The notes beneath the pieces are model-generated. The model saw only the letters and a list, made by a program, of their open reading frames with translations. It had not been told where the DNA came from and searched no databases. Below, piece after piece: positions 770 to 57,240 of a stretch of DNA of 64,000 nt. The stretch is from Heliocidaris erythrogramma (taxonomy: Eukaryota > Echinodermata > Echinoidea > Camarodonta > Echinometridae). The DNA lies in NCBI GenBank assembly GCA_025617745.1, contig CM046862.1, positions 54,843,946 to 54,907,945 of the forward strand, given 5' to 3'. The position numbers and the translations under genes were made by a program. Position 1 is the first letter of the stretch. The number at the start of each line of letters is the position of its first letter.

Positions 770-3700
770 GTGAGTACAATCCTTCCCCTCGTCAAACTTC
801 TGATACATGAACAATATTTCCTACGAATGAATAAAGCTTAAGTAAATATGGTAGATTATCAGTACATTGTTTTTCTTCAGCTGATTGAATGATTTCTATG
901 GTTCATTAATTTGAAATGAGTGAGGATATTGCAATTTTATGGGAGGAAAAGAAAGATCATGACATTCAAATGTAAAATAGTAAAAGGTTTGGAAGTGCCC
1001 GCTCCCTAAAAAATTAAATTGCAGAAATATTCGCGTTACATTAAATTTTGCGGATTTCGTGCTATTTTCGGCGGGCGCGAATTCTAGAACACGCAAAAAT
1101 ATTAGCACGATTTCTTATGCTTTTTTTTAATGGACGCTGCATTGCGCGCTTCATCTGAATAATACATGTTTCAATCCAATTCATTTTAGAGTGCGTGTGT
1201 GTAGTTGTGTCTGTAGCCTGTAGCATGCATTTGAATGGACAGCGTGTGTGTGTGAAACAATAAATGGAGTCGCATTTTTGCGAGTGAGTAATTGTGCTGC
1301 GCGAATTCAAGAACCCGCGAATATGTTTTGGGGTAGCTCAGCTCGAAAATTTAATCACGCGAAAATAACAGCGTTTACAGTATACAGAAGTGCATCTAAT
1401 ACCTTGATATCTACAGACATACAGTCGCTCTACCGGGTCTGACCTCGGAAGTCTGATGGATGTTGATCTTCCTGATCCTTCCATCCTCCGACAAGACGCC
1501 TCCATCGTCGTGGAAACGGAGATACAGCAAAGGGTTGGAGGAGGGGAGGTCTCCCAGGGGGAGTACAGGCAGCTGGTGGAACAGAGCATGAGCAAGTTCC
1601 TGGCCTGCTGCGTGGAATATCACCAAGTGAGTTGCTGTTCCATCTAGTGAAGTTACTCCTGTTTAGAAATGAAACTGTTGAGATATTTGTAAACAAATTA
1701 ACTATTGTTACCAATTTCTTTACTTTGATTTGACCAAATGGCAATGAATTGTTTACTTATATGATAACACAATAGATCTGTTTACTAAGTGATTCAAATT
1801 TTATGCATACTTTTGAAACAAAGGTTGTTCTTGACAACCTGAAAGCTTGCCAGAGGCTTGTCAGACAAAGCAACAAGTAATGTATGCAAACTGGATTCCA
1901 AGTATTGTAGTTCATTCATTAATAACAGGTTAATGGAATACCTCGTTACTAGGTCCCCAGGAAAGAAACATCCATAAATTTGAATCACTTAGTAAACAGG
2001 TCTATTGACAAATCAAATGCATGATAATCATCTGTTATCTATCCAAACCCTCAAGAGATGATGCCAGTAAAATTTGCAATTACTCTTCATTGAACAATGA
2101 TCTCTCATACAGGATATTTCTCTCTTTTTCCTTTTGACTTTCTCGCTTCCATTTCATGTGAAGTTGTATGTTTTTTTATAAATCTTTAATACGCAACAAG
2201 TGTTATACTTTGTTCTCTTACCTTTAGACACGACGTTTCATTCTTGTGTGTTTTTAACACCCTTTTTCAGGTTGCAAACAAGCCCTTGGGTCTGTTCTTG
2301 GATTGTAACACCCATATGCCATGCCTCATCAAAAGAGTAAGTACATGTTTCCATATTTTTATGTTTTTTATTGATATTTGATGCTAGCAAGTTCACTTTT
2401 TCATTCAACATGCCTCCGCAAAAAAAATAAATTAAAAAAAAAAAATGATCAGGGCCTTTCCTCAGACATCAATACTAATGTTTGGTTGATATTCTAACTC
2501 TGACCATTTAGTTGATGACATACATGTATCTATAAGACCAAGTCACCTCTACCTAATGATTATAAACTGCTTACTTTTCTATCACCTTAAAGTGACAGTA
2601 GACTGAAGCTCCTAATGGCGCCATCTTTTAACAGGATTCGGAAAGCGTCTGTGCCTCTTGCTTTCCCATCATGCCCCATTTTAGTTTGTAGAAGCTTGGA
2701 ATGTACCCGGAGGCAATATTCCACATTTGCAAAGTCAAAGATAATAGTTGGAAATATAAAATGTGCCTATCATCCAAACAAGCTGTTTGTCAAAATTAAA
2801 AATAAAATGTGATTAATTTTCAAATTATAATCTTAATTTAGCAGTGAATGTTAGATGGCGCTGTCCAAGTTCTACCAGTTTAATGCCTCTTTAAAAATGA
2901 AGTTGAGTTCTGGTCATGCTATTGAATTGTAAAAGAAACTGTCTCAAAGCCATTGGGAAAGGTCGATTATATAGCACATAAGAAATGGTGTATGCTGTAA
3001 GGTTTCGGAATCACCAAAATGATAAGAAATTGACTCAATCCTGCTGAGAGTCGCATACACTGCACACATAGATATGTATATGGGACTACACACAAATGTT
3101 CGGCCCGAACATTTCAGCTATTTCTTGTCATATTTTGAATGTGAGGGCATTTGAAGAGCAATCGTTTTCAGGGGACATATCTACTATGATAATCTTCCAA
3201 ACTGACATAAAAAGAATGAGAAAGCTCAAAAATTATTGTAAACAAATCTTTCGGCATATTACTCCCAGTGTTAAAGATCGTATGCTCGATCTGTAATGAA
3301 AAATAAAGATCGAGCATACGATCTTTAACACTGGGAGTAATATGCCGAAAGATTTGTTTACAAATTAAAAATTCCTCCCAGTCAAGCTTCTTCGTTCAAA
3401 AATTATAGTTTACCTTTCCCAGAACTCAAGCTTCCCTTTAATTATTTTTATAGGTTTTGCCTCTCTAACAAATTATGCATGATATTGTATTGTATATCCC
3501 CCTTCTCCCTCTCTGTCTTGTTTTTAGAACTTGTTGTCAGTGCTTCAACCTGTTGGCTTACTGGAGGATCTACACATGGGGGTCAAACGCACTTTCAGTA
3601 TGGAAGACCTAGGAGGAGAGTTATCTGATGAAGGTATTGTGTATCAAGTTTTATATCTGTGTATTTTAACCTTTTAGTCACTAAACCGCTTGGGACTGCC

Positions 3701-6700
3701 CGTGGACTTTGACCTGTGTAACACTACAGCAAATATATTGTAAGGGATATCGGGCACTGAAACTTTGTGTGTGCTATCTTTACACGTAAGCCATTTAGAA
3801 TCTGCTTTGAAGCGATGCGTTACTGTGGAAAGATTTTGCGTACAGCAGAGAGTCTATGCCGCAAGATGGTTTACTGAGACTGAGTTCAGTGGGTAAATGA
3901 CTACAATATGCGTCATCCTCAGTGACTAAGAGGTTAAATATTCATGTAGTTATTGCATACTATAATGTTTATCATCAAGAAATAAAAGTCAGAGATGATA
4001 AATTGCTACAAACTTCAAGAGCACTGACTTCCTACTGTTGTACATTCACATCACATGCTTCGACAACAGCCGATTGACAGTCAATTTCTTGCAGCATTAA
4101 ACCCATAGACTACTGGAACCGGGTGACTCCTGTATTAAGCCTATGAGAGTTAAAGAATTCAGTAGTCAACGGGTTAAATGCCCAACTCTGGAGCAAATAC
4201 TATACCTACATATAACTTTAGCTCTAGCCCTAAATGTAACCAATCCACCTGCAACCTTATACATGCCCCTATATCCTTAAAGCCCACCACACACTATTCT
4301 ATCGTTCTGCGGTGCTGATTTCGGAAGGAAAGGACATTTAAACACATATGTTTGATTGAGGTTCTGAATAGCCAAAGCAAAGTTAAAATTACCACCTATT
4401 GCGAGCTTTCTAGTCGGAGGAAAGGCCTTATCGGCTCTGAGTCGTAGTGACGTCAGGGCAGTCCTACGATTGTCTACGATTTGAAACTGATTTGGCCCTT
4501 ATTCCGGGTATAAGGCTGACAGCCCACCCAAACCCTATTTATAGTATTCATATCATTGTTCACAACCTGAATCAGGTAGATTTTATTTGTTAAAATGCGT
4601 ATTTTTATAGCTATCGCGATTTATTTCGAAAATTGGATCGCAGTCGATCGTGTAGTGGAGCAAGTGTCGCAGAAGCTAATGTCGGGGGCGTTTCATCAAG
4701 TGTCTTGTCAGTGATTTTTACCGACAAATTTGCTCTCAGCCAATCAGATGCAAGGATTTCAGTAGCTTATAACAGTTATTGCAACATGTCATTGGTGACA
4801 AGATTTGTGAAACAGGGCCCAGATCACCTCCTTACCCTTCCCTCCCGTCACAGATCCGACCATTCTTCAAGACATCCAGTCACTCCAGGAATGCATCCAT
4901 CTCCTGTCATCCTCCTCCGTTGCCATGGAGATGCAGAGCTTCACAGACTCCCTGATGCAGCTGCAGAGGCCGGTGGACGTGGCCCAGAAGCTGGCCAGCA
5001 AACTCCTCATGCAGGATGGGTAAGCAGAGGGGTTTCACCTTACTTTTTGGATGATGTACATATATATACCCTGTATTAAACATTAAAGATATGCTTTAAA
5101 GGGATACTCAACCGCAGATTGTGGACGTTTTTATGCCGCACCGTGATCGTTACTTGATCATGCCGTTGCCCCGCGCGGGAGCAAACTTCGAACAGCCTGT
5201 TCGCTGCACAACATGCACGCTCCGCCTGTGCGCGAGCTCTCGTGCGAGAATCGGTCGGCTTCGTGCGGTTCGAAATGTAATCCCAGTAGTCCAACGGACG
5301 CGTTCGACGCACATACTTTGTGTACGAGTGAATGGGGCTTATGCAACCCTGACTTTCCCCACGGTTGCCGGTGGCGTATCCCTTTAAAGACACATTTCAC
5401 AGAATCAACCTATTACTCTTGCTTTAAATGACTAAAGTGATACTGTCTTATATTTCTCTTTTCTTTTTTTTTTGTTAATGACTTGTAGGTCTCAAAGCCA
5501 GGCCGTAAGGGAGCAGGTTACACAATCCCTAGGTAGAATTATGGATCCCATGGGTGTCTTCAGAACAGTTCTCCATGTCCTTGATGTAGCAGAGGGTGAA
5601 CCAGAGAACCTACTTGCTGAATTGAGTAAGTAGAAGAGAGAGTGAGAGAGAGGGGGGGGGGAATAAATGAAGAGGTTAAATGGAGAGACGGATATACGTT
5701 GGTATCTGAGAAAGAGAGAAAAGGAGGGAGAGAAAGAGAGAGAGAGTGAGAGAGAAGGAGAGACAAATTGACGTGGGGTTAGGAAATAGACAGAGTAAAA
5801 GAAAGTGAAGCGTAGATCATGCAATTTTTTGGATAATTGTAAATTCATCACAATTTGGCTTTGCTGTATTCAGGCTTGTTTGTTCAGTTTATTTCCTTTC
5901 TCTGTCAAAGAACCGTTAATCTGTCTTTCCCCCTAAAACATTCCCGGTTAAGATGAATAGTATTTTTTAATGTGGTTTACTTTTCAGATCATCTTGGACC
6001 AGATGTGTTCCATAGTCCCACACACCATACTTTGAGTAGTGATCTTTCAGTGGTGTGTCTGGCTGCAAGCTTTGCCAGATTCTCTCAGACGAGGCTGGAA
6101 TTCATGCAGATTCTTCTGGTTCTGGAGTGTCTGATCCTGAGACTAGAATCACAGGTCAGTATCTGACAGAGTCTGAGTTGAAGACTAATACCTGCATGAA
6201 GGTTTGCATCTAGGATCTGTGAAAGGTACCTTTTTTGTTGAAATTTTGAAAAGGCATGGGGAGGGGTGGGGACACATTTTAGAGCTTGTGTACTTCAGAT
6301 ATTCAAAATGGGGGGGGGGGGGTTTAAGGGGGGGTGATTCATTTGTCTATCCACCCCCTCCCACCCCTCCCACCCCCCCCCCCCAAAAAAAAGAAAAGCT
6401 GCCAGTGCCTTCGTGTGGATAAATGTTTTATGATATTTCGTGCGAGTATGCAAAAATTAGTAAACGAAGAAGCTTGACTGGGGAGGAATTTTTAATTTGT
6501 AAACAAATCTTTCGGCATATTACTCCCAGTGTTAAAGATCGTATGCTCGATCTGTAATGAAGAACACAAGTCAGAAAAAATTGGAACCAGCGGGATTCGA
6601 ACCTGTCATCTACTGCTTGCCGGGCAGCGACTTAACCACCAGGCTATTCTGGTTCACGGCCAAGTCACGATGAACTAGAATCAAATACCCAAGATCCTCT

Positions 6701-9700
6701 TCTTTCTGACTCATTAATATTCAAACGGTCCGCCGTAGACAATGGTTAGTAAACGAAGAAGCTTGACTGGGGAGGAATTTTTAATTTGTAAACAAATCTT
6801 TCGGCAAAAATTGTTTGCATGCACAGGGTTCTTGTAAGTGCGTATAACCCCTAGTGCTAATACCAAGTGTCAAAGACTTCAGGAACAAATAATACCAAAG
6901 GTAAATTCTCTGATTTGATCGTATTTGAGTTGCCAGTCTTATCCCATCTCTATCTTCTATGGACTGTTGAGTGTACAAAAAAGTTAACATGTCATGTGAT
7001 AATGTACCTCTTTTATTTATTTCATCACTCTTATCCCATCTCTAGCTTCCATAGACTACCGAATCACCAAGAAGTTGACCTGTTATATGATACTAGTCTT
7101 ACTCACTCGTACCACTCTCATCCCATCTCTAGCTTCCATAGACTACCGAATCACCAAGAAGTTGACCTGTTATATGATACTAGTCTTACTCACTCATACC
7201 ACTCTCATCCCATCTCTAGCTTCCCAGGACAGCTGAATGTACTAAGGAATTAATCTGTGATGTGATACCATTCTTATTTATTTCACCACTCTTAATCCCA
7301 TCTCTAGCTTCCCTGGACTGCTGAATGCACTAAGAAGTTAACCTGTGATGTGATACCATTCTTCTTTATTTCACCACTCTTAATCCCATCTCTAGCTTCC
7401 CTGGACTGCTCGTTGCACGAAGAAGTTATCCTGTGATGTGATACCATTCTTCTTTATTTTACCACTCTTAATCCCATCTCCAGCTTCCCTGGACTGCTGA
7501 ATGCACTAAGAAGTTATCCTGTGATGTGATACCATTCTTCTTTATTTTACCACTCTTAATCCCATCTCCAGCTTCCCAGGACAGCTGAATGTACTAAGAA
7601 ATTAATCTGTAATGTGATACCATTCTTATTTATTTCACCACTCTTAATCCCATCTCTAGCTTCCCTGGACTGCTGAATGCGCTAAGAAGTTAACCTTGGA
7701 TGTGATACCATTCTTATTTATTTCACCACTCTTAATCCCATCTCTAGCTTCCCTGGACTGCTGAATGCACTAAGAAGTTATCCTGTGATGTGATACCATT
7801 CTTCTTTATTTCACCACTCTTATCCCATCTCTAGCTTCCCTGGACTGCTGAATGCACTAAGAAGTTATCCTGTGATGTGATACCATTCTTATATATTTCA
7901 CCACTCTTATCCCATCTCTAGCTTCCCTGGACTGCTGAATGCACTAAGAAGTTATCCTGTGATGTGATACCAGAGACATGCACCATTCTCCATGCCTACC
8001 ATTCCCTAGTGTGGGTCTCTACCTGTGTGTCTAGCCCCATCCAGACAAAGACTGTGTAAGTGTCAAAAATGAAATATGTAGAATTATTGACCATCAAATG
8101 TTTTCCACCACAATTTATTAAAGATAATGATTAGTTCTAGCGTTGAAAAGGAAATTTGAATGAAATTTGTTGAATACGTTACAAATTATATGCCCCATTC
8201 CTTCACAGATAGGAATTTACGTCTAAGCCAACCGTATAATTTCTTTAACATTTCACGTAAAGATAAAGTTGAGTTCTGGTCATGCAATTACATTGTGAAA
8301 GAAACTTGGAAAAGATTGACCATGTCTACTGAAGAGTTGGTGTATATTGTGAGGTTTTTGAATCATCAAAATATGTAAGATATTGACCCAATCTCGCTGA
8401 AAAGCAAATGTACTGCACACAGAAATGGGTATATGGGACTACACACACAAGTGGCATGAATGTTCGGCCCGAACATTTAAGCTATTTCTAGTCATATTTT
8501 GAATATGAGGGCATTTGAATAGCAATACTTTTCAGAGGAATTTTCTGCTATGATGCTCTTCCAAACTGACATTAAATGAATGAGAAAGCTCACAAATTAT
8601 TTTTCAACTTTCCCAGAACTCAACCTTCCCTTTAAGAAACAGAGAAAACTTGATCACCAAAACTTTTAAATAAAGTTAAGTTTATTATAATACACAGTGT
8701 TATGAATCATTTTTTTTTCTAATTATTTTCTTTCTCTAGGGAATTTCATCTCAGACAGATGGCTGTACTTGAAATCTCCCAAAATAGTCCCTCCAAGCTT
8801 ACAGGTCAAACCTCCCTATCTTCAACATTGACCAGTCCACCTTCACCAACCCTTGTAGAGCTGTTTCTGCAGGGGAGTGGAGGGAGCTACGTCCGTTCCA
8901 TTCTGGCCAAGAGGGCAAACAGGAGAGCGGAGGGACTGCAGGACTGGGGGAAATTGTACCCAGCTGCAATGAAGGCAGTTGCACAGCTTATGTATCCTTT
9001 GTGTTATAGACTCAGGGTTCCCACGGTTAGAGAAAAATGATTTCTTCTGTCATGGAAAGGCATGGAAAATGAACGTGGGTGTGGAATAATATATATCACT
9101 GCTTGCTATTCGTACGCCACTTGGATGCCGCAACCCAAACCAAAATGGTACTTATTTAGTCATGGAAAGAGGCAAAAATGGGTCGTGGAAAGCCACGGAA
9201 AATCACAGAATTTGGTTCTCAAATATCTCTGTGAACTCTATGGCCCGTATTCTGAACTACGGTTTAACTTAAACCATGGACTAAATGTGTGGTTTAACTA
9301 TGGGCATCCAAATGTGACACAACTCTCTAACAGTAGATATTCACTTTATCAGCATTTTTGGTACTTAAACTATTAAAAACTGTCTGGGAATGGTAAGTAC
9401 ATTATTTTTCTTGACTGTTAAAGCATGAGACCAGAATCCAGTAAACATAAGGAACATACAATATAAACAAAGTTTAGACACTTTTGGCTACCCATAGTTA
9501 AACCACACATTTAGACCATGGTTTAAGTTAAACCGTAGTTCAGAATACGGGCCTATGACTGCTACTGTGGGGAAAGTCTTCCTTGGTATCAAGAGGATTT
9601 CAATGACAGCAGAAAAATGAGAAAAAAAAGCATGTCAGTGAAAAGTTTGAGAAAAACAGGAAGAGGAGTTTTGAAGATTCTTGTACAGATAGGGACCTCT

Positions 9701-12700
9701 GTGATAACTCTCCCATGCTACTCTTTAATATGTGTATTTCCTTGACCTTATGACCCTGAACAGATGGCCAATCAGTGCTAACTTCCTGTTTGCAGAATAC
9801 CTGATGACCAAATGCCAGTACACCCAACTGCAGGTAAGGCAAATTTTATTTCATAGTTTAGTTACTTTTATGGACCTTAACACCAAAAATTCTACTTAAG
9901 ATATGTCTGCCTCTCTTTTCCAGGGATGGCAACATGGTCCAGATCTACCATTTAAATAAATCTTGATATTGAAGGATGTTTTGAGCCCTGCAATCAGGGA
10001 AAAGGCCCGATTGGCTGCATGTCATAGTTATGTAATAACAGGTGCATGATTGGAGATGGACTTTATCGCCAACTGGAAGGTTTAGGGTATATATGTAGAT
10101 TTGGAATCTCAGTCAGATACATGATACCTTTTTAAAAATTCAATATCAAATCCTAATCCTTTCAAAATTTATCGAAAGGGTTGCGATAGCGTTTACCCTA
10201 ACTTGAAATTGTTTTTAGTACTGACACTCCCACATATCTGTTCTTCTTCTGTAGAGGTGTCGTGGTCTAGTGGATACGTCACCGGACTGTGGATCTCATG
10301 GTTCGCGGTTCCAGTCCCGCCGCGGCACTAATGTCCTTTGGCAAGACATTAATCTACATTTGCCACTCTCCACCCAGTTGTAGTAAATGGGTACCTGGTA
10401 GGAATTTTTTCCTTGAATGCTTTCAGCGCCTTATAGGGCAGCTGGGCTAAAGCCAGGGTAATAATACTTTGGCGCTTAGAAACATTGTATTAAGCGCAAT
10501 ATAAATGTTATGTGTTATTATTATTCTTCTCACTCTATCTACCCAGGGTTACATTCGTCTTCTATCACCATGGTGCGAATGGAACGCTGCTTCCCGTCAG
10601 TTCCTCCTGGCCCATTGCTACCTGAACGCTGGAGAACCTATCAAAGCCTTGGGGTGCTTCCAGGAGGCTAGTCAGAGGATCGGGGCTGAGGATTTTCTAC
10701 TGAACAGACTTCTCAGGACTACAGAACTCCAGGGAAAGAAACTAGAGACGCTCTATCATCTGAAGGTAAGTGGAATGATTAAAAAAGATACCGAGAGAGA
10801 AAGAATGTGTAAAGATACCGAGAGAGAAAGAATGTGTAAAGATACCGAGAGAGAAAGAATGTGTAAAGATACCGAGAGAGAAAGAATGTGTAAAGATACC
10901 GAGAGAGAAAGAATGTGTAAAGATACCGAGAGAGAAAGAATGTGTAAAGATACCGAGAGAGAAAGAACGTGTAAAGATACCGAGAGAGAAAGAACGTGTA
11001 AAGATACCGAGAGAGAAAGAATGTGTAAAGATACCGAGAGAGAAAGAATGTGTAAAGATACCGAGAGAGAAAGAATGTGTAAAGATACCGAGAGAGAAAG
11101 AATGCGTAAAGATACCAAGAGAGAAAGTATGCGTAAAGATACCAAGAGAGAAAGAATGTGTAAAGATACCGAGAGAGAAAGAATGTGTAAAGATACCGAG
11201 AGAGAAAGAATGTGTAAAGATACCGAGAGAGAAAGAATGTGTAAAGATACCGAGAGAGAAAGAATGTGTAAAGATACCGAGAGAGAAAGAATGTGTAAAG
11301 ATACCGAGAGAGAAAGAATGCGTAAAGATACCAAGAGAGAAAGAATGTGTAAAGATACCGAGAGAGAAAGAATGTGTAAAGATACCGAGAGTGAAAGAAT
11401 GTGTAAAGATACCGAGAGAGAAAGAATGTGTAAAGATACCGAGAGAGAAAGAATGCGTAAAGATACCGAGAGAGAAAGAATGCGTAAAGATACCGAGAGA
11501 GAAAGAATGTGTAAAGATACCGAGAGAGAAAGAATGTGTAAAGATACCGAGAGAGAAAGAATGTGTAAAGATACCGAGAGAGAAAGAATGTGTAGAGAAA
11601 GAATGTGTAAAGATACCGAGAGTGAAAGAATGTGTAAAGATACCGAGAGAGAAAGAATGTGTAAAGATACCGAGAGAGAAAGAATGTGTAAAGATACCGA
11701 GAGAGAAAGAATGTGTAAAGATACCGAGAGAGAAAGAATGTGTAAAGATACCGAGAGAGAAAGAATGAGTAAAGATACCGAGAGAGAAAGAATGTGTAAA
11801 GATACCGAGAGAGAAAGAATGCGTAAAGATACCGAGAGAGAGAAAGAATGTGTAAAGATACCGAGAGTGAAAGAATGTGTAAAGATACCGAGAGAGAAAG
11901 AATGTGTAAAGATACCCAGAGAGAGAAAGAATGTGTAAAGATACCGAGAGTGAAAGAATGTGTAAAGATACCGAGAGAGAAAGAATGTGTAAAGATACCG
12001 AGAGAGAAAGAATGTGTAAAGATACAGAGAGAGAAAGAATGTGTAAAGTTACCGAGAGAGAAAGAATGTGTAAAGATATCAAGAGAGAAAGAATGTGTAA
12101 AGATACCGAGAGAGAAAGAATGTGTAAAGATACCGAGAGTGAAAGAATGTGTAAAGATACCGAGAGAGAAAGAATGTGTAAAGATACCGAGAGAGAAAGA
12201 ATGTGTAAAGATACCGAGAGAGCAAGAATGTGTAAAGATACCGAGAGAGAAAGAATGTGTAAAGATACCGAGAGAGAAAGAATGAGTAAAGATACCGAGA
12301 GAGAAAGAATGTGCAAAGATACCGAGAGAGAAAGAATGTGTAAAGATACCGAGAGAGAAAGAATGTGTAAAGATACCGAGAGTGAAACCATGCGTAAAGA
12401 TATATTCGTGGACCACAGAACTCCGGAGAAAGAAATTGGAGGCGCTGTACCATCTAAAGGCAAGTATAACGGTGAAAAATGTACAGATAATGAAACAGAA
12501 TCGGTTAAGATTTTGAGAACATGATTAAACAGACATTTCAGACATTTCCTCCTACAGGATAGAGATGATCAAGATCGAAAGAGAGAGAAAGGGAGGGATA
12601 AAAAGAAGGCAGGTATTTTTGCTAAGGACAGGGTGACTTGACATTAGCTCCGGCGGCAAGAACTGCTGTGTGCATTAATTTGTCAAGATATATAGGGTTA

Positions 12701-21700: not shown

Positions 21701-24700
21701 ATAAAAAAAATTTTTTAAAGCGTTATAACTTTTGAAAAAAATAATAAATGAATGATATATTTTAGAAAGTGAAAATAATAAAATACTACCCAAGTATTAT
21801 TTTTTTTAAAGATCAATAATAACGATTTCATGTACGAGAGATTGTCCTGCTGAAAAACGGCGTGATAACGCGACTCGGATCGTCCACCGGCGATCCAGGC
21901 CATTGTCGACGTTCGCACTTTCGACGAATGCAAGCGAGCACCTTCTATCGCCTGTTCTCAAAAACAGTTAAAACTTCTTTTAAACCATTCAAAAGGCAAA
22001 TATTTATTGAATGAAAATTGATTGCACGATTTTATTCAAAAGATAAACTTATTATTGTAATTTTTTTACAGGAAGCAAAAGCATGATTAGACATCGTTTT
22101 TAGACTATAAAAATCAAGAACAGCAGTCTACCGCGGGTGGTACGTACGTGGTAATTTGAGGGAAAATTCATTTTACACAGATTGCTCGTATATCTATTGT
22201 TTTTCTCATTTATTGACAACAAAGCATATTATTTTGGCATTTATATATCATATGACATGTTATACGTCAAATCTGTTGATCTATAGCTTGTTTTCCTAAA
22301 TGATATACATGTATATGGATGCATGTAGGCCTACACTATAACTTTGTTGCGTGAAACAGTGTATGTGCAAAAAATTAAAAATTGCCGCCGACCTGTCTAT
22401 AGCGGCCACCTTTTCCGTTTCCCTTCGGTGGCCGCTATAGACAGGTTTGACTGTACAAACAAATCATAATGAAACTATCGATAATAAACGTTGGTTACAT
22501 AAGTCATATAATATAGGAAAAAACCATCTGAGCTACAAAAAGGAGAGGAGAAATATAGTTATGGAGTAGACATATTTTTCAGATGATGCTTCAATACCCT
22601 TTTAAAATGTAAAAAATTTTTAACTGACTTAACATGATTTGGGAGGGAATTCCAGAAAAGAATACCATTAAAATAAAAGGAATTTCCAATTTTACCTTTC
22701 CGCTTAGGCACTACGAAATTAAATTGACTATTTCTAGTGTCATGCCCATGAACACTTGAAGAGCGAGTAAAATTATTTGAAATATAGTGATCTGCATTAG
22801 AGTAAAAAATCTTATGTACATGGTGAATTAAAAGTTGTTGTGATCTAAGGTTTACATGAAGAAGACCAGCTATTTCAAGTTCACTCTTCCCAATGTGTGT
22901 TCTTGGTGGTAAGTGATTGATAAATCTTACAATCTTATTTTGAATTATTTTTAACTTGTTTTGATCCACCTTGCCTAGACTGCAGTACCATGCCGCATTA
23001 GCATAATCAAATAAACATTGTATTAAGGAAAAACTTAAAATGCGTCTTGATTTTAAGTTCATACAATTTTGATAACGATACAAGAATTTTAGACGAGCAT
23101 TAGCTTTTTTGACAATACTGTCAACCAAACTTGAGCAAGAAAGATCACTAGCTATATTTAGTCCTAAATACTTCACAGAATCCTGTCTCTTAATGAGTTG
23201 ATTGTTATAACTTATATTGAAATCATCAGTATACTTCAGCCTACCCCGCGAACAAAACAAAATACTTTCGGTTTTACCAATATGTAAGCTAAGCTTATTT
23301 GCTGTCATCCAATTAACACAGTTTGATAATTCTAAGCTAAGTTTTTCCCCGATCAGCTTAGGATCAGTACCAGAATATAGTAACACACTATCATCCGCAT
23401 ATAAAAGTAATTTACTGTCGTTGACACAAACACACATATCATTAATGTAGCACATGAAAAGAATAGGACCTAATATGCTCCCCTGGGGAACTCCGCATCT
23501 TATGGGCATAGAATCGGAGAGTACATTTTGCAACGAGACAACTTGATGACGATTGGTCAAGTAAGACCTAAACCATTGCACACATGCAGAATTTAAACCC
23601 ATTACTTCTAATTTACTTAACAGTATATTATGGTTAACGGTATCGAAGGCTTTTTGCAAGTCAAGAAGAACCATCCCGACAAAACGTCCTTGGGAAATTT
23701 CGTTCCTGACAAAATCTAACAGGTGAATAAGACAAGTTTCAGTGGAATAACCATTTCTAAAACCAGATTGAAATTTGTATATTATTTTGTTTTCTTGAAA
23801 GTAGTTCTCTAATTGGGCATACACACATTTCTCTAGGACCTTCGAGACTATACTTAAAACGCTAATCGGTCTATAATTGCTAACATTAGTTTTATCTTTC
23901 TTTTTATAAAGGGGTGTTACTTTTGCAATTTTCATTTCATCAGAGAAGGTGGAAGTTGAGATAGATAAGTTAATAATGTAAGTTAAAGGTTTATACAAAT
24001 ATTTAGCTCCATCCTTCAAAAATCTGGCAGGTACCAAGTCAAGCCCGGTACTTTTTGATATTTTCAACTTATTTAATTCATCTAAAACAAACTTTTCTTT
24101 GACAGGAGAAAAAAGAAAACAACCTTTCAACACACCCTTAGTGTCGTATAATTTTTGTAATTTAACACTGTCCGTTCCAAATTCATTTGCGTTGCTATCT
24201 GGCAGATTACTAGCTAATTTTTCTGCCACAGTTGTGAAATAATTGTTAAATTTGTTCGCTATCCTCATATTATCATGACATAACTCCCCTTGGATATTAA
24301 TAACATTCTCTTTAACATTCTTTTGTTTGTTTTTACAACCTAAATCTTTCAGATACTTCCACAACTTTTTAGAATCATTTTTATGCTCATCAATTTGATT
24401 TTGGAAGTATTCATCTTTAGCCCGTCTCACTTTTCTTTGCACCAAATTACGTAAAAGTTTATATTTCTTTTCTAATTCTAAATTACCAGTATCCTTTTTC
24501 ATTCTTTTAAAAACTATATTTCTTTGTCTTATTAACGAAATAATTTCAGCATTCATCCACTTATCGGTTCTTTGCTTAATTCTTACTTGTTTTAATGGAG
24601 CACATTTATCAACTATAGACATGAAAATATTTTTGAAAATTGACCACGCAGTATTTACTTTTTTACATTCTAATACGTCAGACCAATTGACTCGAGATAA

Positions 24701-26943
24701 AATATTATTAAAATCATCTATACAATAGTTTCTCATACACCGAATATTTATATTTCTATGCTGTTTGAATACAGGTCTTATTAGCTTCCTAGAGCAGTAG
24801 GTTAAAAAATGATCACTTAGGCCAATTTCAATAACACCACTTTGACAAATATTTTCTTCTTTACTGCTGATTACATGGTCTATTAATGATGAAGTGGCCG
24901 ATGTTGTTCGAGTGGGTTTAGTTATAAGTTGACTCAAACCATTTAAATTCAAAATATTCTTGTATTTTTTTGATAATGAAGACTGCTGCAAAAGGCAGAT
25001 ATTCATGTCCCCTAAAATTATAACCTCATCATCTTTTGTTAATTTATCCAAGGTGTCAGTGAGATATTCAATAAAATAATGATCTGTAGGGGGTCTGTAC
25101 ACAACACCTAGAGTACTGGGTTTAGTATGGGGTAATAGAATGTCAATCCATAACGATTCAATATCATTTTGTGTAAGATCTTCTCGTACGTTAAATGCAA
25201 TATCATTTCTAATATAAAGACAGACTCCACCACCATGTTCTCCTACACGGTCTCGTCTTAAAATACCTGTTCACAAATATATTTAAATTGTATGCATACT
25301 TTCAAAAGAAAGGTTGTTCTGACAACTTAAAAGCTTGTCAGAGGCTTGTCAGACATAGCAACATGTAATCATGTATACAAACTGGATTCCAGGTATTGTA
25401 GTTCATTCATTAATAACAGGTTAATGGAATACCACGTTACTAGGTCCCCAGGAAAGAAACATCCATAAATTTGAATCACTTTGTAAACAGGTCTTTATAG
25501 CAGCTGTATGAGATTCAAGTTATGATTACACGTAGTACATAGCATCGATGCTTTGTAAGTCTCAAAACTATTTCCATTGCGTTCAGACAGGCCATGATCA
25601 ACTTGCTTGTATCACCCACCCGTGACTATTCATCGCACACTCGCTACCAAAACAATAATTACTGCGCCACACACGGTGACCCGAGTATAATTGGTATGGT
25701 TAAAACGCGCGGAAATTTGTGGACTGGGGTCATATCATGCGAAGTTGCGAGTGAAGCAGCGATTGCGTTCACATTATAAATAGTCACAAGCGTGTTGGGT
25801 GGTCTACCGCAAAGCATCGATGCTTTGTCGCTGGATCCTGAGATTTACTCCTGCCAAACTCGCTGCCAGAATAGTTTCGGAACCTGGCTCCAACTCGCTT
25901 CTATCTCGTGACTATCTGCGTTCAGACAGCGTTTGGTCTGAAAAATATCTGGTCATCACCAAAATAGTCTAAAAACCTAGATAGCATCGATGCTATCGCT
26001 CTGCGTGTGAACCCACCTTCAGAGTTCTGTGCAAATTGGACTCAAATTTAGAAATTTGTTTTTCACCTGTTTTACTACAGTGGAAACTCAGTATAACAAT
26101 TACCTTATTATATCAGGAATCTCCTTATACCAGGGTAAAAAAACAAAGGAACATTAACCCCTTCCATGCCACCAGATTTTTGAGCAATTGTCAAAAATGA
26201 ACTTTCATGAGTTGAATATTAACATTCATTGAGTTTTTTTCTTAAGCAAACTGGGCAAAGATTTATTGCATAGGAATAAACATTATATTGGAGGCACAAG
26301 TTTCTGTATGAGGAAGAATTTTCAAGCCATTCTGAGCCTAAACAAAATGTTCAACACTCACATTTTTGGGCGGGATTTGCCACCCACGGCATGGTAGGGG
26401 TTAAGACCTGGGACCAGCAAAATTACCTTGTTATATCAGGAATCTCTTTATATCAGTCAGACCTCTTTATAGCCAGTTTCCACTGCACTAACTTTTTGAT
26501 TTATTTATTAGATATAATCCAAGAAGGTTACATCATTTACTCAAACAATTAAACAGTGTGGTAGAGAAATAAAATATTATTTTCGAGTGAACAAAAATGA
26601 TTGACATCGCTCACACGGATTGCTTTTTCTTTTCTTTTCATGTAGCTTCTCAGATGTCATTAGATGAGACGGTTAGTTTCCTGGTACAGAGTGGTCTCTA
26701 TGACACAGCTATTGATGTTTGCAAGACGTTCAGACTGACTCTTACTCCAATGTTTGAAAGCCTTGCCCACAGGTTAGAAAGAGTTATGATGATGATGATG
26801 ACAGAGATGATGATGTCGATGATTATACGTGTGTGGTGCGGATGTTGATGATGATTATGATGATGATGATGGTGATGATGATATTTATGGTGATGACTGT
26901 GATGATGGTGATAATGATGATCATAATGATGTTGATGTTGATG

Positions 26944-26974
<31 letters not shown>

Positions 26975-27215
26975 TGATGGTGATGGTGATGATGGTGTTG
27001 ATGGTGATGGTAATAATGATGATCATAATGATGGTGGTGGTGATGGTGATGATGGTGTTGGTAATAGTGACGTTGATGGTGATGGTGTTGGTAATAGTGA
27101 TGAATGATGATGATGATGGTGATGATGATGATGGTAATGTTAATGATCGTGATGATGATTATGATGATGGTGGTGATGATGAAGGTGATGATGGTGATGG
27201 TGGTGATGATGAAGG

Positions 27216-27246
<31 letters not shown>

Positions 27247-30200
27247 GATGAATGATGATGATGGTGATGATGATGGTGATGATGATGGTGATGATGATGG
27301 TGATGATGATGATGGTGATGATGATGGTAATGTTAATGATCGTGATGATGGTGATGATGATGATGGTGGTGATGATGAAGGTGATGATGATGGTGATTGT
27401 GATGATGATGGTGTTGGTAATGGTGGTGATGATGGTGATGATGATGATGAAGGTGATGGTGATGATGATAATGGTGGTGATTAGGTGCTGTAATATCTCA
27501 GTTATTGAAACCACCCTTGTGAATTTGGGCCATAGAGTCTAGCATCTTTTCACGGCTAACGGAAAACGGTGAAATCCAGTCGTTAAATCATTTAGATGCT
27601 GATGATAATGGTGATGTCAATAGAAGTGAAAGTGATGTTAATGATGGTGACACTTGATGCTTGGTGTAGTGGTTCTCTCATGTTCTGTCTAATCTTTCTT
27701 TTTCAATATTTACTCCTTAAGTCTCTTTACCATCTCGCTTCCTATTGCATTATCATTTCTCTATCTCTGTCTTTGTCTCTCTCTCTCCCTCTTTGTCTCT
27801 CTCTCTCCCTCTTTTTCCCCCTCTCTCTCCCTCTTTTCCCCCCTCTCTTTTCTCTCACTCTCTCTTCTCTCTCTACCCTCATTCTCTATCTCTCTCTCTT
27901 CCACTTTCTCCCCTCTCACTTTTCTCTCTCGCTTCTCTCTCTCTCTCATGTTTACCTACATTATGTTTGTCAATTATCCTTCTCTAGATGTGTGAAGCTA
28001 TCACGAAACGGAGCAGACAGTGAGACATGGAAATGGTTAGCTGCAAATGACATAGGCGCCCTCAACCTGGGCAGAGAAGCTACGTAAGTACCAAGGACTT
28101 GATCGCAAAGGCTTTCAAGAAATCAGCTCAGGGGCAATGTCTATACCTTGTGTTACAAAAAAGGGTCTGCAACTCAAAACTAATATCATATAATATAATG
28201 TAATATCATATATATAGTAATATAATATATTATATATATATATATAGTAATATAATATAATATCATATATCATGTAATAGTATATATATTATGCTGATCA
28301 AAGAAGATAAGGTTAGAGCTGGGGGAAGCAGAAGAGGGGAGAGTGTACAATGGCCATGGCTATGCGGAGTGAAAGCCAGGGAGTAAGAACATGGGCTATA
28401 TTTGACAGCTAAAAGTTGTGATTTAAAGATAAAGTTTAGTTTTGGTCATGCGGTTACATTGTGACCGAAATTGCTTCAGAGTAAAAGGGAAAGATTGATG
28501 ATGTCTACATAAGAATTATAAGGTTTTGGAAGCATCAAAATGATTAAAAATTGACCCGGTAAGGTTTTGGAAGCATCAAAATGATAAAAAATTGACCCGG
28601 TCTCGCTAGAAAAGCACATGCACTGTACTAAGAAATGGGTATGTGGGACTGCACACACACGTAGCATGAATATTCAGGCTGAACACTTCAGGTATTTCTT
28701 GTCGTATTTTGAATATAAGGTCATTTGAAGAGCAATCCTTTTCAGGGGACATTTCTACTGTGATATTCTTCCAAACTTAAAAGGAGAGAATGAGAAAGAT
28801 CACAAATTATTTTTCAACATTTACCAAAAGTCAACCTTAAGTCAGCCCTCTTTAAGCTGGTATTCCATCTTGTCATTGGACAGTGTTTGTAGTTTGAGGT
28901 ACAGGGTATCATGTGACTTGGCTTCAACACATTTAAATAATATAAATATTGTACAGTCTCTTGTTGTAAATAAAAAGTAGTCTAGTCAGTTTCATTCAGT
29001 AACTTGAGTGGGAAATGTCTTTTTTATACGTACTACAGATTTCTTTCTAACTTTCCTGTAAGTCAATCCATCATTTTATTTCCTAGTTTGTTTACACCTG
29101 TCATAAAATAGATATGTTCTCGTTGCATATGTCTTTGTAGCAGGTGGTGTCACAAGCTAATACCTCAACAGAACTTGCAGAAACATGCTAGTTTATGAAA
29201 TTGTTATTTCAGAATTTGAGAAGCAAAACAACTGCTTTGGGTTGTTTTTTGTTTTTTGTTTTGTTTTGTTTTGGTTTTAGTATTGGTTTTTTTTTTTTGG
29301 GGGGGGGTTATTACGGTCCTGCCAGATATTTTGGTCATCTATACATACAAATAATTTGTTGCTCTGATTAATGTTGCTTTATATGTTTGCTCATCAGTTT
29401 GTTTTGAATAAATTAATTGTTCTAATAATTTTTTTTTCCTGTTTTGACATGTAGAGCTGCTGAGCTAGCCTGGCATCTTCTGCAGACATACCTAGAGAGA
29501 TACGATCAGAAAGGAGATCATCTTCACTTCAAGACGGTGATCAAGAAACTGCTCTCTCTGGGTTTCCAGCTCCCACAATGGATCATTAACTCATACAAGG
29601 TATGATGATGATGGTGGTGGTGGTGGTGGTGATCGTAATGGTGATGATGATAATGGTGATGCTGATGGTGGTAGTGACGATGATGACGAAGATTCTTTTG
29701 ATGGTGGTTGTGGTGATGAGGATGAAGATGATGAGGAAGATTATTATGGTGGTGGTTGTTGTGATGATGGTGATGAGGAAGATTATTATGGTGGTGTTGA
29801 TTGTAATGGTGTGATGATGATGGTGATGATGATGTTGATGTTGCTGCTACAGTGGAACCTCATTATAACAAACTCCTTGGGATCAAGGAAATTACCCCTT
29901 AATATCGAAACCTTGTTATATCATGGCTAAAAAAACAATAGAATACAAAGGAGTGGGACCAGCAAAATCACCTTGTTATAAGGAGAGTTTGTTATACCGG
30001 TGTGCTTTGTAACAAGGTTCTGCTGCAATGATGGTGATGATGGTGGTGCTGGTGATAATGGTAGTGATGATGATGGTGATTGTGGTGGTGGAGGTAATAA
30101 TGATGGTGGTGATAGTGATGGTGATGATTATGATGATGGTGGTGATTTTATGATGATGATAATGTTTGTCATGATGATGATGGGGATTGTGGTGGTCGTG

Positions 30201-36329: not shown

Positions 36330-36355
36330 GAGAGAATAAGAAATCTCATAAATCA

Positions 36356-36495
36356 GGGGAGCATTTCATGAAAACAAGTTGTCTGATATTTTATCCGACA
36401 ACTGTTATAAGCTACTGAAATCCTTGCATCTGATTGGCTGAGAGCAAATTTGTCGGATAAAATGTCTGACAAGTCCTTTGATGAAACGCCCCCCA
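36356..36495. mobile_element. Hairpin MITE, family F
   Basis: From aggggagcatttcatgaaaa to tgatgaaacgccccccag. Arms contain ttgtctgatattttatccga and its complement. Confidence 0.8.
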
Positions 36496-36524
36496 GGCAT
36501 CTTTTCCAGAACCCAATCTTCTCT

Positions 36525-36720
36525 TTTGGCAAGACATTAATCCACATTTTGCCACTCTCCACCCAGGTGAAGTAAATGGGTACCTGGCAGGATTTATTCC
36601 TTGAAATGCACTGTGCGCTGAACTAAAGCCAGGGTAATAATATCTAAAACCCTTTGGAAGCGCATAGGGACGTTATATTATAATGTGATATGCGCTATAC
36701 AAGAACAGTGGTATTATTAT
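36525..36720 (+). mobile_element. SINE body fragment
   Basis: Contains ttggcaagacattaatccac and accatt-tail features such as gggtaataatatctaaaacc. The tRNA-like head is missing. Confidence 0.75.
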
Positions 36721-45487: not shown

Positions 45488-45518
<31 letters not shown>

Positions 45519-45638
45519 ACATCCGCCCACCCCCCTCAAATACGCCATTACTATAAGTCTGACTTATGACCATTCCTTTAAAACACACACACATACACAC
45601 ACCCAAGAGGGAGGCTATAAACAGCTGGCTTAAACCAG

Positions 45639-45975
45639 GGGGTGTTTCATCAAGTATTTTGTCAGTGATTTTTACCGACAACTTTTTATAAGCTACTGAA
45701 ATCCTTGCATCTGAATGGCTGAGAGCAAATTTGTCGGTTAAAATCACTGACAAAACGCTGAATTAAACGCTCCCCTGGGTAATAATTGTCAAAGCCCTTT
45801 GGAAGTACTAGGAACTTTCATAAGATTACATGCACTTTACAATTAAACAATGGCATATTCCGAATTAACCGATCATTATAGAGTTTCTTTCAAATTTTGA
45901 AAATTGAAAAACGCTATGATAATCACCTTGTCTTATATTACGCCGCGGGGGCATAATATTAACAAAATAGTCATC
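45639..45975. repeat. Local duplication, copy 1 (family F MITE plus flank)
   Basis: Begins with a family F hairpin (45639-45777). It continues through aattaaacaatggcatattc and attacgccgcgggggcataa. The whole block recurs at 48021-48355. Confidence 0.85.

Positions 45976-50614: not shown

Positions 50615-57240
<6,626 letters not shown>

Follow-up and report, generated by a model that had tools for sequence, protein, structure and literature searches.

The last intron segment before the fifth placed exon of the NUP160 gene of Heliocidaris erythrogramma is a tandem array, in which the intron-exon junction itself, with its AG and the start of the following exon, is repeated. With a probability that we put at roughly 0.7, judged from sequence, this array is a minisatellite across an intron-exon boundary, a so-called mirage, in which splicing would go mainly to the last acceptor by exon definition and any use of the upstream acceptors would be removed by nonsense-mediated decay. 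The analysis covers one stretch of 64,000 nucleotides (assembly GCA_025617745.1, contig CM046862.1, positions 54,843,946 to 54,907,945), here called the window; all positions are counted from its first letter.

Identity of the gene and anatomy of the array

The gene had been recognized as NUP160 in the initial annotation, and Pfam profiles confirm this, including a match at the very junction where the array is located. The exons 5988..6154 and 7922..8055, joined, match the profile NUP160_helical at 6.3e-15; residues 7-97 are aligned to profile positions 104-194 and, thus, the match spans the junction. Thirteen exons were placed by eye within the window, which opens inside the gene; the array-bearing exon is the 5th, and the first one matches positions 389-458 of a 491-position beta-propeller profile. 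Besides the joined pair, eight of the 13 placed exons match NUP160 profiles, seven above the Pfam cut-off (2.1e-22, 2.8e-10, 9.6e-7, 7.2e-13, 2.3e-12, 1.3e-6 and 8.5e-14) and one below it (4.2e-5). In the same Pfam scan, which left out the exon at 27988, the exon at 5489 gave only a weak HEAT match (0.038) and the exon at 8740 no profile match. Among PDB sequences the top match is a NUP160 chain (5a9q), a weak one at 0.027; of the five matches listed, all but the fifth, an unrelated one (0.78), are NUP160.

All parts of the junction lie on the forward strand. The preceding exon (5988..6154) ends in phase 0 at the donor CAG|GTCAGT, the 5' splice site facing the array. The intron (6155..7921) comprises 1767 nt and has the array as its 3' end. 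It is followed by the real exon (7922..8055, 134 nt), the first 51 nt of which are part of the repeat unit, with the donor TGT|GTAAGT. Tandem Repeats Finder describes 6933..7972 as a tandem array with a period of 88, 11.8 copies and 88% matches (score 1401). The unit of 87/88 bp consists of 51 nt of exon start preceded by an intron tail that holds a branch-point candidate, a pyrimidine tract and the AG. The right edge of the array, at about 7972, is inside the exon. To the left, at 6919-6932, a weak resemblance to the unit is seen. BLAST of the unit consensus against the window yields 12 copies with E values from 4.7e-40 to 1.3e-15, and the next best place in the window has 0.57.

The junction copies were delimited by cutting at the repeated motif CCCATCTC(T/C)A(G/T)C, which gives 12 of them, ending at 6953, 7045, 7132, 7219, 7307, 7395, 7483, 7571, 7659, 7747, 7834 and 7921. 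Their spacings are, in order, 92, 87, 87, 88, 88, 88, 88, 88, 88, 87 and 87. Unit 1 (6933..7024) is the most diverged one; AT at 6952-6953 replaces the AG and its exon part is identical to the real exon at 38 of 50 positions. Units 2 and 3 (7025..7198, AG at 7045 and 7132) are 97% alike and have a single-base deletion in the exon part, with a stop as the third codon past the acceptor. Units 4-10 (7199..7813) have their AG at 7219, 7307, 7395, 7483, 7571, 7659 and 7747. Unit 11 (7814..7900, AG at 7834) has no difference to the real acceptor region between -28 and +51, and only 2 differences over the 87 upstream positions. The real acceptor (7901..7921) reads ccactcttatcccatctctag. The AG is kept in 11 of the 12 junction copies, that is in ten upstream copies and at 7921. 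The ten extra acceptors within 0.9 kb, which had been noticed before, are indeed there (7045 to 7921, 876 bp), and a comparison of the array copies confirms that the sites are much alike. Also the description of the unit as an intron-exon junction holds, but its exon part measures 51 bases, not about 48. Likewise, an elevenfold acceptor is correct for the copies with AG, whereas the junction copies total 12, the first one with AT.

Tandem arrays are often misassembled, and the last two units, 11 and 12, are nearly the same over the 87 upstream positions mentioned above. One might therefore suspect an artefact of the assembly, i.e., a true array of other length or a false duplication. We regard this as the least probable of the alternatives considered here, as the many private differences (38/50 to 50/50 identity among the exon parts of units 1-10) and the differing spacings are unlike a simple assembly error. 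The exact copy number may still be wrong.

Further upstream in the same intron, a 61-bp perfect direct repeat (6457-6517 and 6746-6806) flanks a stretch that by eye resembles a tRNA. Within 6457-6806 ARAGORN predicts no tRNA gene. Sequence related to this repeat occurs at 3236-3404 in both orientations.

Predicted choice among the acceptor copies

All 11 AG copies come with a pyrimidine tract of their own and with a yUnAy branch-point candidate that lies 21-31 nt upstream, and no further AG is found within the last 32 nt of any of them. Ordinary choice at the first step would be enough with such signals. The suggestion of an unusual lariat or branch-point chemistry, made earlier for this array, is thus without support.

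How strong the copies are was estimated with two small matrices. The first one, built position by position with one training site misplaced by one base, gives six of the ten upstream sites -1.3 to 0.8 and the other four 5.3 to 6.1, the real site having 5.3. For the second one we used 12 other acceptors of the NUP160 gene (placed by eye), averaged the pyrimidine-tract positions and changed the pseudocount. It places the ten upstream sites at 8.0-9.6 and the real one at 9.4; the gene's other 12 acceptors, left out one at a time, range from -0.2 to 16.1 (median 8.6), and of the 3870 AGs in the window 1.2% equal or exceed the real acceptor. Since the two matrices disagree, the near-equality of all ten upstream sites depends on the matrix. 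The difference between the scores goes with the extra base of the 88-bp units, and judged by these scores sequence may help the last site against such units. This does not extend to the copy at 7834: as it is the same as the real site from -28 to +51, a choice between the two has no explanation in local sequence.

Units 4 and 8 have a T-to-A change in common, which creates a second AG 8 nt downstream of the acceptor (7227 and 7579). These second AGs score 11.1 and 10.8 with the second matrix, above the real site. Variable columns numbered 2 of 13 in the acceptor and 22 of 50 in the exon part (10 of the 12 copies, the two deletion-bearing ones left out; P 0.11). Extra conservation of the acceptor, which would hint at a constraint on the decoys, is therefore not claimed.

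Splicing probably goes mainly to the last acceptor, at 7921. All units with an AG would be complete 3' splice sites. The last one alone leads into a whole exon, the donor of which lies 134 nt downstream, and we infer that exon definition across this short exon favours it. For alternative sites in large introns, pairing across the exon is favoured and the closest sites pair, as described in PMC9225289. Section 9 of that paper reports that splicing on the whole prefers upstream 3' sites, though less so under exon definition; hence, use of the last site is not assured.

What would follow from using an upstream copy can be read from conceptual joins of the preceding exon to each of the 11 upstream copies. 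With the ten intact upstream sites the exon would lengthen from 134 nt to 221-1010 nt. It had been stated that units of this length cannot all be in frame, and relative to the real site six of the 11 upstream copies are in frame and five are shifted. However, frame hardly matters, because in all 11 joins a premature stop precedes any in-frame reading of the real exon. Two joins reach it after 2 codons, eight after 28 to 42, and the join to the copy lacking the AG after 99. Isoforms had been raised as an idea at the outset; useful protein isoforms by simple extension find no support in these joins. Some upstream use probably leaks, and every such product would carry a premature stop and become a target of nonsense-mediated decay.

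The same stops could be taken the other way round. Upstream acceptors might be used at a substantial and regulated rate, and the length of the array would then set the share of NUP160 transcripts sent to nonsense-mediated decay. Ten intact upstream acceptors, near-equal by one of the two matrices, the nearest of them matching the real one from -28 to +51, and an early stop in the joins to all 11 upstream copies would fit such an arrangement. We consider it unlikely. NUP160 is a core nuclear-pore gene and its strong loss would be costly. Almost any 88-bp intronic repeat would, moreover, contain stops, which are thus no evidence of design. The overall upstream preference in the data of PMC9225289 (section 9) speaks for substantial upstream use, whereas the amphioxus genes with mirages are reported to splice regularly (PMC3087553, PMC3902484).

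A further alternative concerns the exon part of the units. These might act, or could come to act, as in-frame mini-exons of 42 nt or 14 codons, up to GAT|GTGATA, adding the peptide LPWTAECTKKLSCD or a variant of it. Ten of the 12 copies, among them the real exon and unit 1 with its lost AG, have these 42 nt open and in frame, with GTGATA following. In a related way, a potato gene gained an intron whose donor came from the exonic part of a boundary-crossing duplication (PMC4974935), and a like route is proposed by the amphioxus authors (PMC3087553). Against this, the donor GAT|GTGATA scores -1.3 and the best GT inside the array -0.3, compared with 4.5 for the donor of the preceding exon and 1.6 for that of the array exon, on assumed donor frequencies and with these two real donors for comparison. 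As no GT of the array reaches the two real donors, separate mini-exons are unlikely; in addition, the added peptide would break the region which aligns to the NUP160 profile across the junction. Taken together, we hold mini-exons to be very improbable. Ratchet-type recursive splicing was rejected, as a GT follows none of the acceptor copies.

The array may also be pictured as a length-tunable brake, with a share of splicing to decay that grows with copy number, or with occasional in-frame mini-exons of 14 residues, such that a change in copy number within one animal or tissue would alter NUP160 output. This seems quite unlikely to us, and we prefer splicing mainly to the last acceptor, with decay of what leaks.

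Probable turnover of the array and other repeats in the window

The identity of the exon parts to the real exon climbs along the array (Spearman 0.82, P 0.002, n = 11); unit 1 has 38/50, while units 10 and 11 have 50/50. The gradient is uneven, unit 7 having 50/50 and unit 8 43/50. Pairwise identity of the units is 68-100%; the last units are almost identical and identity drops toward the 5' end. We infer that the array began with the duplication of a segment of about 87 bp, made of the last ~36 nt of the intron and 51 nt of exon start, and that unequal exchange or slippage then raised the copy number. The 5' copies would be old and decayed, and those toward the exon young or recently homogenised. 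The gene stays intact because the last copy runs into a complete exon. These patterns point to minisatellite turnover of the ordinary sort, in which the functional copy sits at one end.

An exchange of blocks is suggested by the private variants which units 4 and 8 have in common. A strict order of units in blocks of four was rejected, since the mean identity at lag 4 is not above that of shuffled orders (3778 of 10000 permutations as high). Nor do we claim that the copies are under purifying selection: synonymous changes make up 9 of the 23 distinct substitutions, versus 21.5% expected (P 0.07), in a test on nine of the 11 upstream copies that left out the two deletion-bearing ones and ignored transition bias.

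A second boundary of the gene is duplicated as well. The last 50 nt of the exon 10547-10765 and the first 19 nt of the following intron (10716-10784) occur again at 12410-12478, about 1.7 kb downstream, with an alignment score of 63; the best of 200 shuffles had 24. This duplicated exon end terminates in AAAG|GCAAGT, a possible GC donor, and is preceded by a 27-bp array of 60 copies (10784-12402). A derivation of the 27-bp unit from the neighbouring exon end was rejected, as 223 and 225 of 500 shuffles were as good.

In total eight tandem arrays are located in the gene, and they lie close to exon edges. Three are within 20 bp of an edge, compared to 0.18 at random (17 of 20000 placements with as many or more), four within 50 bp, compared to 0.45 for random intronic placement (13 of 20000), and six within 100 bp, compared to 0.88 (0 of 20000), by a soft control that relied on exon placement by eye and on cut-offs picked after the fact, and that barred random copies from exon overlap though the acceptor array itself overlaps an exon. 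An acceptor might need a TC-rich tract, and for this reason one such tract was set aside; then three of seven arrays are within 20 bp (5 of 20000), and the same three within 50 bp (103 of 20000). The TC-rich tract (27758-27947) ends 41 bp before the exon placed by eye at 27988. An ATG-rich array (26786-27481) begins 16 bp past the NUP160 exon end that was placed by eye at 26770.

Several other features were noticed in the window. A 903 aa open frame on the minus strand (22559-25270) resembles by eye the reverse transcriptase of a non-LTR retrotransposon. The peptide motif KFALSxSDARISVAY is repeated in at least three places (4594-5079, and 36353-36622 and 45517-45762 on the minus strand); this repeat peptide has no relative in genome_contigs or viral_contigs. 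Peptides of this sort are present in gene models of sea cucumbers, which would point to an echinoderm as host. At 51267-51659, 52111-52503 and 52825-53224, one stretch is present in three diverged copies, both strands of which carry similar open frames. At 56777-57037 there is a weak SH2 match (5.9e-4), just under the Pfam cut-off, which we take to be reminiscent of an exon of the CRK adaptor.

Comparison with known systems

The choice of the spliceosome among near-equal 3' sites is usually studied with constructs. Duplicated 3' splice sites have been tested in globin genes, where identical serial acceptors compete for one donor; these constructs were designed, while here a natural series of eleven is seen. 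A natural gene with ten upstream acceptors is thus at hand, and its pair at 7834 and 7921 does not vary in local sequence. All that sets these two sites apart is their order, how far they are from the donor, and the remainder of the exon, which makes the pair an unusually clean natural test of site choice. A splice signal is multiplied also in the human interferon-induced gene 6-16 (IFI6), which contains a minisatellite with multiple splice donor sites; there the unit is short and donors are concerned, here an 88-bp unit and acceptors.

In the potato RdRp intron (PMC4974935) a boundary-crossing segment with branch site, pyrimidine tract and AG is duplicated as in NUP160, but as one extra copy and with an active donor, whereas here about eleven extra copies occur without a strong donor. 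Internal tandem repeats in genes of human segmental duplications (PMC2812944) are likewise minisatellites at exon-intron boundaries and can activate cryptic splice sites and form introns. They are, however, in recent human paralogs, and a series of copied acceptors is absent from the passages of that paper which deal with them.

The closest likeness is to the mirages, minisatellite-like tandem repeats over intron-exon boundaries described in amphioxus for Adh3, the globins BflGb6 and BflGb9, PGBD5 and TnC (PMC3087553, PMC3902484). As portrayed there, mirages have splice signals in many units and differ in copy number, and splicing is regular where the mRNA is reported. This holds for the Adh and TnC mRNAs, whereas for the boundary repeats of PGBD5 splicing is predicted (PMC3902484). 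The NUP160 array shares several properties with the description in PMC3087553: it spans an intron-exon boundary with a unit made of intron end and exon start, as in BflGb6; the splice signal is kept in many but not all units (here the AG in 11 of 12); and units homogenise within the cluster, with 68-100% pairwise identity here and 81-100% in BflGb6. Furthermore, both acceptor and donor sides are affected. In amphioxus the acceptor-side duplication is in one globin gene and the donor-side one in another (PMC3087553), whereas both are found in one gene here. The unit differs, with 87/88 bp compared to 10-72 in Adh3, 150-160 in BflGb6 and 157 in BflGb9 (PMC3087553, PMC3902484), and so does the number, 12 junction copies compared to 6 and 3 repeat units in two BflGb6 haplotypes (PMC3087553).

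Boundary repeats of this kind are thus already described in these two papers. New are the gene, the number of acceptors and the second boundary duplication, at an exon end, in the same gene; other animals are outside this claim. We file the array as a mirage on its anatomy, with mirages described from lancelets and with splicing here predicted. Arrays of the mirage kind are a proposed route to new introns (PMC3087553), and a host outside the cephalochordates would, if true, make boundary minisatellites a wider phenomenon among animals.
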